Assembly: GCF_021129155.1 (NCBI RefSeq)
Contig: NZ_JAJOMC010000003.1
Coordinates: 1-64,000, forward strand
Length of the DNA stretch: 64,000 nucleotides
Direction: 5' to 3'
From: Arthrobacter sp. AK04
GTDB lineage: Bacteria; Actinomycetota; Actinomycetes; Actinomycetales; Micrococcaceae
Shown here in pieces: positions 49,680 to 57,912 of the stretch. The notes under the pieces were generated by a model. It saw only the letters and a list, made by a program, of their open reading frames with translations. It was not told where the DNA came from and made no database searches. How positions within the stretch are numbered: position 1 is the stretch's first letter; each line of letters opens with the position of its first letter. The position numbers were made by a program, and so were the translations under genes.

Positions 49680-50538
49680 CTCCTGCCCAGACCCGCGGCG
49701 AACGGGACAGAGCGAGAGCCCATCCACCGGCCACCCCAATGGCAAGCAGTACCGCGACAAAGCCGATCGCCTGCGCACTCGTCCATGCCAGGTCGCCGCC
49801 ATACCGCAGCAGGGCAAGCGCCTGCAGAATGACGAAGGCAACGGAGGTCAGTGCCACAGGGCGGACAGTGCGGAGGTCGCCGCTGAGCTGGCCCTGCGCG
49901 GCTGACCACCCAAGGCCGACCAGCCACGCTCCGACCGCCCTCGCTGTGAGCTCGGACAGTGTCCACGGCCACCACGCCGCAGCATAGGCGGGTACTGCCA
50001 GGAGCGCCACGCCATAGATCAGCAGCACCCCGGCAATTGCCACCATGAGCAGGCGGAGCGCAGGGGGCAGTACCGGCCGTCCCGCCGTCACGGACCCTGG
50101 GACGCTACGCAGGGCGCGGATCTGAATCCAGCTGATCACCAGCATGGCCACGGGCACGACTGCATAGATTGCCAGCCACGCCCAGGTGGCTACCTGCGCA
50201 AGGGGACCACTGTCCGGCGACAGGTGGAAGCGGTCAAGGTGAAGCAGGGTGACTCCGAGAGTAAGCGTCGTGAAGACGAACACGGGCCAGACTGCCAGCC
50301 TCGCTGAGTCCCAACTCGCTGACCGGGCACCCGTCACCTCCAGGCCGGCGGCGGACCAGTATGCCGCCCCAAGGAAGACTGCGGTCATGGGCGGATTCAC
50401 TGTCCACGCGAACCATTCCGCCGTCCGCAGCGGAAACACGAACAGCACCAGTCCGGCAAGAAAGACCAGGAATGCGGCGGCGTAGAGCAGCCGCCGCATT
50501 GCCGGAATCAACGGTGTGGCCTCAGCTGAAGCGGACAT
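49672..50538 (-). CDS. Membrane protein with eight predicted helices, unknown function
   Basis: The 288-residue protein is nearly all hydrophobic: LLYAAAFLVFLAGLVLFVFPLRTAEWFAWTV, AVWPVFVFTTLTLGVTLL, WAWLAIYAVVPVAMLVISW, LLMVAIAGVLLIYGVALLAVPAYAAAWWPWTLSELTARAVGAWLVGLG and others. The phrase FPLRTAEWFAWTVNPP and its echo PAYAAAWWPWTLSELTAR suggest an internal duplication of a four-helix unit. It overlaps the end of the flavoprotein gene by 17 bases, implying one operon. Confidence 0.7.
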   Translation of the reverse strand: MSASAEATPLIPAMRRLLYAAAFLVFLAGLVLFVFPLRTAEWFAWTVNPPMTAVFLGAAYWSAAGLEVTGARSASWDSARLAVWPVFVFTTLTLGVTLLHLDRFHLSPDSGPLAQVATWAWLAIYAVVPVAMLVISWIQIRALRSVPGSVTAGRPVLPPALRLLMVAIAGVLLIYGVALLAVPAYAAAWWPWTLSELTARAVGAWLVGLGWSAAQGQLSGDLRTVRPVALTSVAFVILQALALLRYGGDLAWTSAQAIGFVAVLLAIGVAGGWALALSRSPRVWAGVR

Positions 50539-52288
50539 CACCGGGCAACTCCTCGAGTACGGCTTCCCCAGCAGGAGCAGCCGGCGAAGCGGGAAGGGGG
50601 TGCTCGGCCAGATAAGTGTGGAGCATCGAGACCACGGTGGCGCCATCTCCCACGGCGGTGGCTACCCTTTTGATCGAACCGGCCCGCACGTCCCCGATCG
50701 CGAAGATGCCGGGCATGCTGGTTTCCAGCGCCAGCGGAGGCCTGTCCGGCCTGACGGACCCGGTGGCAATGGCATCCCGGTTGGTCCCCGTGCGCAGAAA
50801 ACCGGCCGGGTCGCGCTCCACTGTGTCGGGCAGCCAGGAGGTCCGCGGCACCGATCCGATGAGAACGAACAAGCCGCCCGCTTCGATCTCCTCGGCCGGG
50901 ATTGCGTCGGGGGCTCCGGCTGCCGCGACCTTGACGGCGGCAAGGAATCCGTCCCGGTCGCGGGCCCCCACGATCACGGCCCCATAGCGGATCGCCACGT
51001 TCCGGGTGGCCTCAAGTTGGGAGATGAGGTAATCCGACATGCTGACCGACAGTGTGGGTCCGCGCACCAGCAGCGTCACCTTCTTCGCGAACTTCGCAAG
51101 GTGCAGCACCGCCTGTCCGGCCGAGTTGCCGCCACCTACAACGCAGACCTGTTTGCCGGCCATCGACGGCGCCTCCGACACCGTGGCCCCGTAGAAGACT
51201 CCCCTGCCCACCAGATCCTCAAGCTGGGGTATGCCGAGGCGGCGGTAGTCCACGCCGGTGGCCACCACCACTGTGCGGCACCGCACCACACTGCCGTCGG
51301 AAATGGACACAGCGTAGAGTGCTCCGTCCGCACGGAGCCCCTCGACCTTCCGCATGAACAGGAAGTCCGTTCCCAACGTCCAGGCCTGGTGGAACGAACG
51401 GTAGGCCAGGTGGGCGCCGCTCACACCTCGGGAGAAGCCAGGGTAGTTGCGGATCAACGAGCTGGTGCCTGCCTGGCCTCCCACGGCTTCGCCCTCCACA
51501 ACCATGGTGGCGAGGCCCTCCGAGGAGGCATACACGGCGGTGGCAAGACCGGAAGGACCGGCCCCCACAACCACCACATCGAAGATCTTGTCCGCCGGTG
51601 GCGGTCGTGTCACCCCCATCGCTTCGGCAATCTCCACGTCGCTGGGGTTCTGGAGGACAATGGGTGACGCGGTGAACTGCAGCACCAGGACCGGCAGCAC
51701 GGGGTCGCGCAGGCCCAGGACCTCCAGTGTCCGTTCGGCAGTCTCGGACCCGGCCGGGTGGAAGCCCACGGGGATGTGGTTTCGGCTCAGCGAGTCGCGC
51801 AGCGCATGGGTCCTTTCGTCACCTATCCCCCCGATCAGCCGGACCGCCTCGAACCCCACCCCCTGGGCCAGGTGCCAGTCGTCGAGGGCGTCGGTGATCG
51901 CCCCGTGGAATTCTTCGTCGCGCGGGCGTTCAGGCCGGATGATCAGCAATTCCGCATGCCCCTGCCCGATCGCCCGGAACACTGTCGGGGCGCTGGCGAA
52001 GTCACCCCAGGTCACCACAACCACGCGCTTGGCGGCCGGATGAAAGCCATAAGCACGACGCAGGAAATCGAGGCCGCCGCGGTCGGCGGGTCCGTAGCAC
52101 CCGAGGATGAGGGCCACCGGCCGGTTCCAGCGCCGAAGCCCCTCGAGCACGGCCCGCCCGTGGGCGTGGCTGGCGCATGCCACCACCTCGTAGTCGGCAC
52201 CGTAGCGCCGGCGTAATTCATCCCCAAGAATGCGCCGGGAATCCGGGTCTGGGGTAGCAATCAGCATGATCGGAACCGAGTCATCCAT
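50522..52288 (-). CDS. Thioredoxin reductase-like flavoprotein with degenerate receiver and thioredoxin-like N-terminal domains
   Basis: The 588-residue protein has residues 1-135 as a receiver-like domain where the phosphoacceptor position reads LGCYGP, with no Asp. Residues ~145-215 resemble a glutaredoxin/thioredoxin fold without a CxxC. From ~235 there is a two-dinucleotide-domain flavoprotein: VVVVGAGPSGLATAVYASS (FAD), ATGVDYRRLGIP, CVVGGGNSAGQAVLHLA (NADPH) and IFAIGDVRAGSIKRVATAVGDG. The usual redox CxxC of thioredoxin reductase is replaced by FYGATVSEA. It is divergent from the UBP zinc-finger gene, a pairing I recall from other bacteria. Function unknown. Confidence 0.87.
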   Translation of the reverse strand: MDDSVPIMLIATPDPDSRRILGDELRRRYGADYEVVACASHAHGRAVLEGLRRWNRPVALILGCYGPADRGGLDFLRRAYGFHPAAKRVVVVTWGDFASAPTVFRAIGQGHAELLIIRPERPRDEEFHGAITDALDDWHLAQGVGFEAVRLIGGIGDERTHALRDSLSRNHIPVGFHPAGSETAERTLEVLGLRDPVLPVLVLQFTASPIVLQNPSDVEIAEAMGVTRPPPADKIFDVVVVGAGPSGLATAVYASSEGLATMVVEGEAVGGQAGTSSLIRNYPGFSRGVSGAHLAYRSFHQAWTLGTDFLFMRKVEGLRADGALYAVSISDGSVVRCRTVVVATGVDYRRLGIPQLEDLVGRGVFYGATVSEAPSMAGKQVCVVGGGNSAGQAVLHLAKFAKKVTLLVRGPTLSVSMSDYLISQLEATRNVAIRYGAVIVGARDRDGFLAAVKVAAAGAPDAIPAEEIEAGGLFVLIGSVPRTSWLPDTVERDPAGFLRTGTNRDAIATGSVRPDRPPLALETSMPGIFAIGDVRAGSIKRVATAVGDGATVVSMLHTYLAEHPLPASPAAPAGEAVLEELPGDVRFS

Positions 52289-52455
52289 GGCCGCCGTCTT
52301 TCCGGTTCAATGGTTCGGTGGCGCTCACGATACTCGCGGTAGGACACTAGCGACAAGGGGTCCTGCACGCCTCCGCAAAGGTCCTTCTGTACCGGGGCCG
52401 GGCCTGCATTGAGGCCCGCCCGTGGCCGGGATTCTGTCATTCCAAAGATGCGGAG

Positions 52456-52468
52456 ATTCTGCCAGAAT
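52456..52468. promoter_or_regulatory. Possible operator (inverted repeat) between flavoprotein and UBP genes
   Basis: ATTCTG-C-CAGAAT is a perfect 6-1-6 inverted repeat. A related half-site ATTCTG lies at 52431-52436, 25 bp away. It lies in the 245-bp divergent region. The binding protein is unknown. Confidence 0.35.
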
Positions 52469-52533
52469 GGCTCCCGACGACGGGCCTGCAGGATGACCTG
52501 GACAGCACCGGAGCGATGGAAGTGGAGGACCCC

Positions 52534-52896
52534 ATGGAGGACCGCCCTATCCCGGGAATCAGCCTTACCGCCACACCCAGCGGAACGGGGTGCCTGGAGT
52601 GCCTCAGCGGCGACGGCCCAGGATGGTGGCTGCATCTTCGCCGCTGCGCCCATTGTGGCCACATCGGATGCTGCGATTCCTCACCCTCACAGCACGCCAG
52701 TGCCCACGCGCGCACCGCCGGTCACCCCGTGATGAGGTCCTTTGAACCTGGGGAGGCTTGGTTCTACGAACACACCACAAAGAAGTTCTTCCGCGGACCA
52801 AGGCTTCCGGATCCCCAATCCAGGCCACCGGACCAGCCGGCACCTGCACCGGCAGACAAGGTGCCGGCAGACTGGCGGGAGCGCCTGCACCAGTAG
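52534..52896 (+). CDS. UBP-type zinc-finger protein
   Basis: The 120-residue protein has a single ZnF-UBP domain: CLECLSGDGPGWWLHLRRCAHCGHIGCCDSS, then HASAHARTAGHPVMRSFEPGEAWFYEH. Its Cys/His ligands are all present. In eukaryotes this domain binds the free C-terminus of ubiquitin; in bacteria its partner is unknown. A Pro-rich tail follows. ATG at 52534 has GGAGG five bases upstream; 52516 is an alternative. It is divergent from the flavoprotein gene. Confidence 0.88.
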   Translation: MEDRPIPGISLTATPSGTGCLECLSGDGPGWWLHLRRCAHCGHIGCCDSSPSQHASAHARTAGHPVMRSFEPGEAWFYEHTTKKFFRGPRLPDPQSRPPDQPAPAPADKVPADWRERLHQ

Positions 52897-55873: not shown

Positions 55874-56566
55874 ATGGCGACAGTACTCCTCGTGCGGCAC
55901 GGCCGCACCACAGCCAATGCCACTGGACTGCTGGCCGGCCGGGCTGCCGGTGTCAGCCTTGACCACACTGGCCGCGAGCAGGCGGCTCTGACCGGTGAGC
56001 GGCTCGCGGCAGTACCCTTAGCAGGGGTGGTATCGAGCCCCCTTGAGCGTTGTCAGCAAACCGCACAGCTCATCCTCGACCGCCAGGCCGGCACTCCTTA
56101 CGCACCGTTGGAACCCGATCTTACCGAGTGCGATTACGGCCAGTGGCAGGGCCGCACGCTCACTGATCTCGCAACCGAAGATCTGTGGGCTGCTGTGCAA
56201 TCGCAGCCGTCCGCCGTCATCTTTCCCGGCGGTGAGTCCATGGCCGGGATGCAGGCTCGGGCGGTGGCAGCCATTCGACGCCACGATGCAGCCTTCGAAG
56301 CCGAGTACGGGCCAGCAGCCGTATGGGTCGCGGTCAGTCACGGTGACGTCATCAAATCAATCCTTGCCGACGCGCTGGGCATGCACCTCGACCTGTTCCA
56401 GCGCATCAACGTGAGCCCTGCCTCCGTATCGATCGTGCGCTACAGCGGCACCCGGCCAAGCGTTTACGCAACCAACACCGAGGCCGGGGACCTGTCGTGG
56501 CTGTCGAACAGCATCCTTTCTGCCGACGCGCCGGTGGGCGGCGGTGCAGGGCAACAGGCGCCATGA
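55874..56566 (+). CDS. Histidine phosphatase family protein (MSMEG_4193 type)
   Basis: The 230-residue protein has catalytic RHG motif LLVRHGRTTANATG, SPLERCQQTA, ECDYGQWQG and the second catalytic His in VAVSHGDVIKS: a complete phosphoglycerate-mutase-like phosphatase. The combination with DUF3090 and SCO1664 genes is conserved in actinobacteria. TAGGCT lies seven bases upstream of the ATG, suggesting a leaderless message. The physiological substrate is unknown. Confidence 0.93.
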   Translation: MATVLLVRHGRTTANATGLLAGRAAGVSLDHTGREQAALTGERLAAVPLAGVVSSPLERCQQTAQLILDRQAGTPYAPLEPDLTECDYGQWQGRTLTDLATEDLWAAVQSQPSAVIFPGGESMAGMQARAVAAIRRHDAAFEAEYGPAAVWVAVSHGDVIKSILADALGMHLDLFQRINVSPASVSIVRYSGTRPSVYATNTEAGDLSWLSNSILSADAPVGGGAGQQAP

Positions 56567-56590
56567 GGCGCCTGTGCCTAAAATGCTCTT

Positions 56591-57145
56591 ATGCCTACAC
56601 GTGTTCATGAGTTCGACTGGCCTGATCGGGTCGTCGTCGGCACCATTGGCCTTCCGGGGGCACGGACGTTCTACCTGCAGGTGCGGGCAGGGAACCAGAT
56701 CGTCAGTATCGCCATGGAGAAGCAGCAGTCGGCCCTGATCGCGGAGAAGATCGACGAAATCCTCGACCAGCTTCTCACCGTCGAGGGCAACCCTCACAGC
56801 GTTCCCACCAGCACTCCCATTGAACTGGTTGACAATGACGGGCTTGAGGCCGTTGAGGAGCAGTTTCGGACCGGCGCCATGGGCTTAGGGTGGGACCCGA
56901 CGACGGCGCAGGTCGTGATCGAGGCCTACCCGATCACCGATGTCGACGCTGATAGTGACGACGAATCGCCAGATGAGGATGACGCCGAGGTGCCCGAAAT
57001 GCTGCTGGTGCGGATGCCCGTTGGCACCGCCCGTGCATTTGCTAAGCGCACGCGGGAGGTTGTGGGCGCCGGGCGTCCCGCGTGCCCGCTCTGCGGTTAC
57101 CCCGTAGACGCCGAAGGGCACGTCTGCACTTTGCCCGAGGCCTGA
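56591..57145 (+). CDS. DUF3090 family protein
   Basis: The 184-residue protein starts RVHEFDWPDRVVVGTIGLPGARTFYLQVR and ends with CPLCGYPVDAEGHVC, a small zinc-rib-like CxxC...C. These are hallmarks of DUF3090. An acidic linker (DADSDDESPDEDD) separates the two. TAAAAT lies seven bases before the ATG, suggesting its own leaderless start. Its stop overlaps the next ATG by one base (TGATG). Confidence 0.92.
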   Translation: MPTRVHEFDWPDRVVVGTIGLPGARTFYLQVRAGNQIVSIAMEKQQSALIAEKIDEILDQLLTVEGNPHSVPTSTPIELVDNDGLEAVEEQFRTGAMGLGWDPTTAQVVIEAYPITDVDADSDDESPDEDDAEVPEMLLVRMPVGTARAFAKRTREVVGAGRPACPLCGYPVDAEGHVCTLPEA

Positions 57146-57912
57146 TGCCGGCGCCGGACCTGGTGGCGGCCGAGCTGACGCTCACCGGGCGCATTACGAC
57201 GGCGTCCAACGCCACTTTCGTGGGCAGCATTGGCGATACCACGGTTGTCTATAAGCCGGTAGCCGGGGAAAAACCGCTGTGGGATTTTCCTGACGGCGTC
57301 CTTGCCCACCGGGAGGTTGCCGCCTACCTGGTCTCGGAGGTCCTCGGCTGGAACGTGGTGCCGCGCACCTGGCTGCGGGATGGTCCGCTAGGCGAAGGGA
57401 TGGTGCAGCTCTGGCAGGAGAGAGACCCCGACCAGAACGCGGTGGACCTCGTTGCGTCGGACGACGTACCGGAAACGGGTTGGAAACACGTCCTCGAGGG
57501 TCAGGATGAGACCGGACGGATGGTCGCCCTCATACACGAGGACTCTCCGGCGCTCAGACGTATGGCAGTGTTCGACGTCGTGGTGAACAACGCCGACCGC
57601 AAAGGCGACCACATCCTTGCCATGTCAGGAGGGCACCGGCACGGCGTGGACCACGGGCTTACCTTTCACCGCGACCACAAGCTGCGCACGGTGCTGTGGG
57701 GGTGGCTGGGAGACGCCCTGACGGTCGAGGAACTTGAGGGCATCGACCGTGTCAGGGCAGGACTGGACGGGGAGCTGGGCCGAAACCTGGCTGACCTGCT
57801 CACCGCCGCAGAAATTGCGTCGCTCGCTGCGCGCTGCGCCCGGTTGCGCTCGGCGGGTCGGTTCCCCGCTCCAAGCGGTCAGATGTCGGCGGTGCCCTGG
57901 CCGCTGTTCTGA
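57145..57912 (+). CDS. SCO1664 family protein (PI3/4-kinase-like fold)
   Basis: The 255-residue protein has NATFVGSIGDTTVVYKPVAGEKPLWDFP, HREVAAYLVSEVLGWNVVPRTWLRDGPLGEGMVQ and DVVVNNADRKGDHIL with HGVDHGLTFH, the SCO1664 signature. The N-A-D...D-H-G residues suggest a divergent kinase-like ATP site. It is translationally coupled to the DUF3090 gene and followed by a terminator. Confidence 0.92.
   Translation: MPAPDLVAAELTLTGRITTASNATFVGSIGDTTVVYKPVAGEKPLWDFPDGVLAHREVAAYLVSEVLGWNVVPRTWLRDGPLGEGMVQLWQERDPDQNAVDLVASDDVPETGWKHVLEGQDETGRMVALIHEDSPALRRMAVFDVVVNNADRKGDHILAMSGGHRHGVDHGLTFHRDHKLRTVLWGWLGDALTVEELEGIDRVRAGLDGELGRNLADLLTAAEIASLAARCARLRSAGRFPAPSGQMSAVPWPLF

Follow-up and report, generated by a model that had tools for sequence, protein, structure and literature searches.

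The window analysed here is a 64,000-nucleotide stretch of the Arthrobacter sp. AK04 genome (contig NZ_JAJOMC010000003.1, positions 1 to 64,000) containing two divergently transcribed genes, one for a flavoprotein related to thioredoxin reductase (TrxR) and the other for a stand-alone zinc finger protein of the UBP type (ZnF-UBP). Their positions, strands and divergence, as given in an initial annotation made from the sequence alone, agree with the open reading frame (ORF) coordinates. A third gene, absent from that annotation, encodes a predicted membrane protein and overlaps the end of the flavoprotein gene (Table 1). No sigma-70-like site was found by a simple scan of the region between the divergent starts.

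Table 1. Genes and features of the flavoprotein and ZnF-UBP locus (window coordinates).
Feature	Coordinates	Strand	Basis
Flavoprotein gene, 588 aa: receiver-like, thioredoxin-like and CxxC-less thioredoxin-reductase fold	50522-52288	-	ORF, Pfam, alignment, AlphaFold model, PDB fold search
Receiver-like domain, residues 1-143; T12/P13, C64, V92 and R118 replace the usual DD, D, T and K	51860-52288	-	Alignment (n=153), model fold, dN/dS
Thioredoxin-like domain, residues 147-226, without CxxC; R169-N170-x-I-P173	51611-51850	-	Alignment, model, weak Glutaredoxin match of relative L104
TrxR-like FAD and NAD(P)H domains, residues 232-565; GxGxxG and GGGNSA retained	50594-51595	-	Pfam, PDB sequence and fold matches, alignment
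FYGATVSEA, residues 365-373, at the site of the TrxR CxxC	51170-51196	-	PDB sequence match, alignment
Stand-alone ZnF-UBP protein, 126 aa; proline-rich C-terminal tail, terminus DWxxxLHQ	52516-52896	+	Pfam, PDB match, alignment
zf-UBP domain (C26, C29, C44, C47, C52, C53, H60, H64, H70)	52591-52773	+	Alignment
227-bp intergenic region separating the divergent starts of the flavoprotein and ZnF-UBP genes	52289-52515	.	Gene coordinates
Predicted all-helical hydrophobic (membrane) protein, 288 aa	49672-50538	-	Start codon inferred, ATG 50536-50538 within flavoprotein 3' end

The reductase part of the flavoprotein matches Pfam Pyr_redox_2 (residues 236–549, E 6.7e-30) and has the FAD- and NAD(P)H-binding motifs and the fold of TrxB. 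No Response_reg or thioredoxin match is present in the window protein up to E 1 with Pfam. In its AlphaFold model (mean pLDDT 88.7, pTM 0.85), the secondary-structure elements of residues 7–142 are predicted to be ordered as in a (beta-alpha)5 receiver and those of residues 149–223 as in a thioredoxin (Trx) fold; both were judged from element order, and the matches of the whole-protein fold search are taken up by the reductase part. Relatives have Response_reg matches at the equivalent place (L049, E 3.9e-14; L104, E 7.7e-12), and L104 also has a Glutaredoxin match at the Trx-like part that lies under the cut-off (20.7 versus 22.9 bits). The model is closest to a TrxR structure titled as the FR conformation (5mh4; Z 36.2, root mean square deviation [rmsd] 1.5, 303 residues), and a structure titled FO (5mjk) gives Z 29.5 and rmsd 7.7. 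The protein scores 191.8 bits against the NCBIfam equivalog TIGR01292, without reaching its cut-off of 343.45.

Two known enzymes are similarly built. Low-Mr TrxB (e.g. 7aaw, 5mh4) resembles the window flavoprotein in its FAD and NAD(P)H domains (E 3.5e-40 for the best sequence match in PDB, Z up to 36.2), but the window flavoprotein lacks CxxC and has two extra N-terminal domains. AhpF has Trx-fold domains ahead of a TrxR-like module, and its structure 4xvg is the top Foldseek match of the flavoprotein; unlike the window protein, it belongs to a family known to carry CxxC in both parts, and it has no receiver.

The family was aligned as 153 rows, with L141 and L147 dropped as duplicates and flavoprotein matches below 430 bits left out. 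Nearly all members retain the motifs for FAD and NAD(P)H, but neither the Trx-like nor the reductase part contains CxxC in any of them (0/153), so its loss is a family trait and not a sign of decay. A disulfide relay within the flavoprotein is ruled out by the same count. No cysteine is conserved family-wide, the best column having Cys in 82/153 rows and Met in the window. In the receiver-like domain of the window protein the acidic pair, the phospho-Asp, and the usual Thr and Lys are all replaced (Table 1). The initial annotation had described a receiver without phospho-Asp, a Trx-like domain without CxxC and a reductase with FYGATVSEA in place of CxxC, and alignment and model bear out each of these. 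Its view of the degenerate sites as a single oddity is not supported, since receiver loss is special to the window's clade (described below) and CxxC loss is not.

The divergent gene product contains a zf-UBP domain (PF02148; E 1.1e-10, 42 bits versus a cut-off of 22.7) with its conserved Cys and His residues kept. The nine Cys/His positions listed in Table 1 are near-invariant among bacterial ZnF-UBP sequences (120–122 of 122), and L41-R42 is present in 121 of the 122, with one gap. We take the HDAC6 zinc-ligand scheme of two zinc sites and eight ligands to apply, which would leave one of C52 and C53 over. The Arg of the HDAC6 CGR motif holds the ubiquitin C-terminal carboxylate. The window protein has D54 and S55 at the positions aligned with this motif (register from the PDB sequence match), and Arg is found at position 54 or 55 in none of the 122 sequences, with a single Arg at 53; binding of ubiquitin-like tails is therefore not expected, and the ubiquitin-tail binding for which the initial annotation noted the domain is not supported for these proteins, which lack the Arg of the HDAC6/USP5 type. 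ZnF-UBP is best known as a ubiquitin-tail reader, and the bacterial kind without the tail-holding Arg is suited to the study of another role. A bacterial-type member has been solved (PDB 2IDA, listed as a hypothetical protein; E 4.4e-20 across residues 10–92), although the alignment ends before the proline-rich tail of the window protein; no paper on 2IDA is among the matches listed (best 8 of 27). The tail of the window-type proteins ends in (D/N)WxxxL(H/R) and recurs in Streptomyces loci.

Orthologues of the flavoprotein in six other genomes of the window's family are 76–88% identical, with open frames of 583–638 aa. The ratio of nonsynonymous to synonymous rates (dN/dS; computed by NG86 with dS up to 1.1, hence rough) between the window and these six relatives is 0.07–0.14 for the receiver-like domain, the lowest of the three domains in 6/6 comparisons, 0.12–0.79 for the Trx-like part and 0.12–0.25 for the reductase part; 17 of the 18 domain-wise values lie in 0.07–0.43 and one is 0.79. 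With four relatives each, the values are 0.08–0.17 for the ZnF-UBP protein and 0.18–0.29 for the membrane protein. The pseudo-receiver is without phosphorylation chemistry yet is the most constrained part, which points to a role as scaffold, in dimerisation or in ligand binding.

The flavoprotein and ZnF-UBP genes are linked across genomes, as the initial annotation had proposed for the two as a unit. Among 296 genomes of the phylum, 62 carry the flavoprotein family among the matches listed (E <= 1e-58 or so, a limit that keeps out weaker matches overlapping with ordinary TrxR) and 68 carry ZnF-UBP. Both are present in 49, the flavoprotein only in 13, ZnF-UBP only in 19 and neither in 215, such that ZnF-UBP accompanies the flavoprotein in 49/62 genomes versus 19/234 without it (Fisher p 3e-28; the genomes are not independent). 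Counted by genus the picture is similar (both 37, flavoprotein only 8, ZnF-UBP only 14, neither 139; 37/45 versus 14/153). Within the window's family (197 genomes), all seven genomes with a flavoprotein orthologue (the window's own, at 100%, and six others) carry the same type of ZnF-UBP, and the pair is adjacent in five, divergently in the window's own genome, G399, G457 and G427 and convergently in G332. Chance adjacency of the pair is ruled out by the co-occurrence and the recurrent gene orders.

The arrangement of the genes varies. Among 40 loci with both genes (L032–L140 and L171–L258), 22 have the order flavoprotein–kinase–ZnF-UBP and seven the order kinase–flavoprotein–ZnF-UBP, all on one strand; the rest vary. 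Such loci occur in Actinomycetota, Bacteroidota and Cyanobacteriota. Among the best 80 of 590 relatives, picked by flavoprotein similarity, the kinase profile matches at 58 loci, and ZnF-UBP is present at 20. Loci L032–L120 were selected for the presence of ZnF-UBP, so its fractions over the 153 rows are biased upward. In the reverse direction, 17 of 89 stretches around ZnF-UBP matches contain the flavoprotein; 24 of the 89 are shortened at contig ends and the flanks of the family loci span only 1.5 kb, so neighbours may be missed. Annotated plasmids of Tsukamurella and Streptomyces carry, in this order, overlapping genes for an FAD-dependent oxidoreductase, an ATP-binding protein and a UBP-type zinc finger, and a Rhodococcus pyridinivorans plasmid has consecutive genes for a thioredoxin, a ZnF-UBP protein and a flavoprotein of the cyclic nucleotide (cNMP) type; no ZnF-UBP is present in the other five of the eight plasmid neighbourhoods.

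The initial annotation had also raised gene fusion. No fusion of ZnF-UBP to the flavoprotein itself was seen, but with Pfam the domain is found joined to other proteins of the system. It is fused to a cNMP-binding kinase in L104 and forms the C-terminal end of Na+/H+ antiporters in L044, L069, L089, L092, L113, L150 and L155, with a TrkA_N domain in between in L069; the antiporter–ZnF genes of L150 and L155 are directly upstream of the flavoprotein gene. L117 encodes an LtrA–ZnF-UBP fusion. Separately, LtrA genes are located near flavoprotein–kinase genes on Deinococcus and Nostoc plasmids (L174, L175).

The kinase is associated with intact receivers. Kinase neighbours are matches to a profile made from nine neighbouring genes (a membrane-gene profile was likewise made from eight), and 80 of the 101 members with D64 and K118 have a match no more than 1.8 kb away, versus none of the 40 without. 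In a tree of the Trx–TrxR part (inferred rapidly under LG+G4; some branches are long) the window protein belongs to a clade of 53 rows (SH-aLRT 99), in which 13 receivers are intact and no member has a kinase nearby. The receiver-type members outside this clade have intact receivers in 88/88 and a nearby kinase in 80/88. The remaining 12 of the 153 have another N-terminus in place of the receiver (cNMP_binding where checked, L091), and ZnF-UBP is near in six. A lone Cys at window column 376, five or six residues past where the second Cys of CxxC would stand, is present in 75/88 of the receiver-type members outside the window's clade and 6/12 of the cNMP type but in 1/53 of the window's clade, and is Met in the window. 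The fewest changes on the tree, with gains and losses not distinguished, are seven for the receiver, eight for the kinase, 17 for ZnF-UBP and three for the membrane gene. The kinase-linked receivers and the constrained pseudo-receivers of the window's clade constitute a natural experiment on a receiver without phosphorylation.

The 64-kb window contains no kinase-profile match, and Pfam finds no cNMP-binding domain in its flavoprotein or ZnF-UBP protein; the domain is confirmed with Pfam in the kinases of L099, L148 and L104. When the L148 kinase is compared with the window's own genome, there are 13 matches, the best of 43.9 bits, all confined to its C-terminal part (residue 278 on), which identifies them as ordinary kinases and not as an orthologue.

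The membrane-protein gene follows the opposite pattern to the kinase, being within 1.8 kb in 12/40 members with a degenerate receiver versus 0/101 with an intact one. It stands beside the flavoprotein gene in six of seven close members (the window, L142–L145 and the Kocuria rosea contig L179) and beside six further members with a degenerate receiver, and occurs in 16 of the 296 genomes of the phylum. The 288-aa product has no Pfam or PHROG match and its model no Foldseek match in PDB at E <= 0.001. Searched with VIA, the model (built with five sequences) resembles 8xqw_O (Z 15.5, rmsd 4.5, 241 residues; next match 8.1). The entry 8xqw is the Ycf2–FtsHi motor complex, and the modelled resemblance to its chain O may serve as a lead only.

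Part of this system has been anticipated. Burroughs, Iyer and Aravind reportedly predicted in 2011 that bacterial ZF-UBP domains act in a cyclic-nucleotide-dependent redox signalling system. The general pairing of flavoprotein and ZnF-UBP is consequently not new, and the suggestion in the initial annotation that the pair is undescribed is not supported. The 2011 article (Mol Biosyst 7:2261) is cited in PMC4506424. The linkage of ZnF-UBP genes to redox flavoproteins of TrxR fold is common to that system and to the present one, in which it was re-derived independently, but the window locus differs in having neither a cNMP-binding domain nor a kinase, in its degenerate receiver and in its membrane-protein partner. 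The Rhodococcus pyridinivorans protein annotated as 'Cyclic nucleotide-binding domain-containing thioredoxin-disulfide reductase' and the Tsukamurella and Streptomyces proteins are 39–40% identical to the window flavoprotein and are also accompanied by a ZnF-UBP gene; unlike the window, those loci have a cNMP N-terminus or a receiver plus kinase, and are one-strand operons and not divergent genes. With its pseudo-receiver, its link to a membrane protein and its lack of a kinase, the branch at the window locus represents a variant of the predicted ZF-UBP system. Literature searches, with most subscription-journal papers outside their scope, showed among the matches listed neither a biochemical study of the flavoprotein–ZnF-UBP pair nor a description of this branch.

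A widespread signalling partnership between the flavoprotein and ZnF-UBP is probably real. We tentatively interpret the window locus as a branch of this bacterial module that works without the kinase, in which an NAD(P)H/FAD flavoprotein of TrxR fold signals through its flavin state and ZnF-UBP acts as adaptor. NAD(P)H would still reduce the FAD and, with no disulfide to hand electrons on to, the redox state of the flavin may be turned into a conformation via the N-terminal domains; alternatively, slow turnover of the flavin with another acceptor could set the conformation. The ZnF-UBP protein would dock as an adaptor or output piece, as is plausible for its fusions with kinases and Na+/H+ antiporters, and might tie the flavoprotein to a partner in the membrane, for which the co-encoded protein is a candidate. 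Phosphorylation would not be involved here, and the pseudo-receiver would serve as a scaffold or dimerisation surface. The locus may encode an NAD(P)H/flavin switch that needs no thiols and is read out by a zinc finger; if true, a protein of thioredoxin-reductase fold would signal redox state without using thiols. The fullest version, in which phosphorylation control gives way to a conserved pseudo-receiver and a flavoprotein lacking redox-active Cys residues relays NAD(P)H status solely via its flavin, through ZnF-UBP as adaptor, to a dedicated membrane protein, is unlikely to be correct in every part.

Several observations weigh against interpreting the locus as a flavin-state signalling branch. 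The 13 members of the window's clade that retain D64 and K118 have no kinase near, and ZnF-UBP is nearby in only 8/53 members of that clade. The link between kinase and receiver is largely one old split, and a test on independent pairs, counted on supported branches only, gives four pairs and is not significant. ZnF-UBP is not adjacent to the flavoprotein gene in two of the seven close members (G439, G455) and has no match in the 13 phylum genomes with the flavoprotein only; conversely, 20 of the 36 genomes of the window's family with the window-type ZnF-UBP lack any flavoprotein match with E <= 1e-50, which indicates that ZnF-UBP has other roles or partners. The membrane gene is missing at L146 and stands apart from the flavoprotein gene in several genomes. 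The resemblance of the model to the FR form is also of limited weight, because AlphaFold may favour one conformation regardless of function.

A serious rival, although a good deal less likely, sees no signalling role in the flavoprotein: it would be an ordinary NAD(P)H-dependent reductase that passes electrons to ferredoxin, a quinone or the membrane protein encoded beside it, and ZnF-UBP would be an accessory or metal-handling subunit. TrxR-like ferredoxin-NADP reductases, which also lack CxxC, are among the PDB matches of the flavoprotein, the cofactor motifs are kept, the model resembles the FR form, and the membrane gene overlaps the flavoprotein gene and recurs beside it; a Caballeronia gene for NADH-quinone oxidoreductase subunit M is two genes from the flavoprotein. 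Regulation is suggested instead by the variety of regulatory N-termini, among them receiver and cNMP-binding domains, and by the kinase operons, and no ferredoxin is among the annotated features of the eight plasmid neighbourhoods.

It is quite unlikely that adjacency at the window locus is a leftover, or reflects merely a shared control region between proteins that act separately, with ZnF-UBP serving antiporters or other partners. The many family genomes with the same ZnF-UBP and no listed flavoprotein would fit, as would the two close members in which the genes are apart and the seven antiporter fusions, but every orthologue-bearing genome of the family carries ZnF-UBP, mostly adjacent, and adjacency recurs in several arrangements. 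The initial annotation's proposal of an electron-accepting zinc finger, whose thiols the flavoprotein would reduce with NADPH, appears improbable: one near-invariant Cys beyond the presumed eight ligands and the Rhodococcus operon with its thioredoxin are in keeping with it, but the flavoprotein has neither CxxC nor a family-wide conserved Cys with which to pass electrons, and zinc-bound thiols are generally poor acceptors. That the flavoprotein is a decaying pseudo-enzyme, as its three missing active sites might imply, is barely credible given the open frames in six relatives, the low dN/dS of the receiver and reductase parts and the family-wide loss of CxxC; dN/dS all but rules out pseudogene decay.

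Other genes lie to the right of this locus. A cytochrome P450 gene (53042–54205, +) is located 3' of the ZnF-UBP gene on the same strand, and its best NCBIfam match is Cyp119 (E 3.4e-79, under its cut-off). Further to the right, genes for an MSMEG_4193 phosphomutase, a TIGR03847 protein and an SCO1664-family protein are consecutive (55874–57912, +), each scoring above its NCBIfam cut-off.

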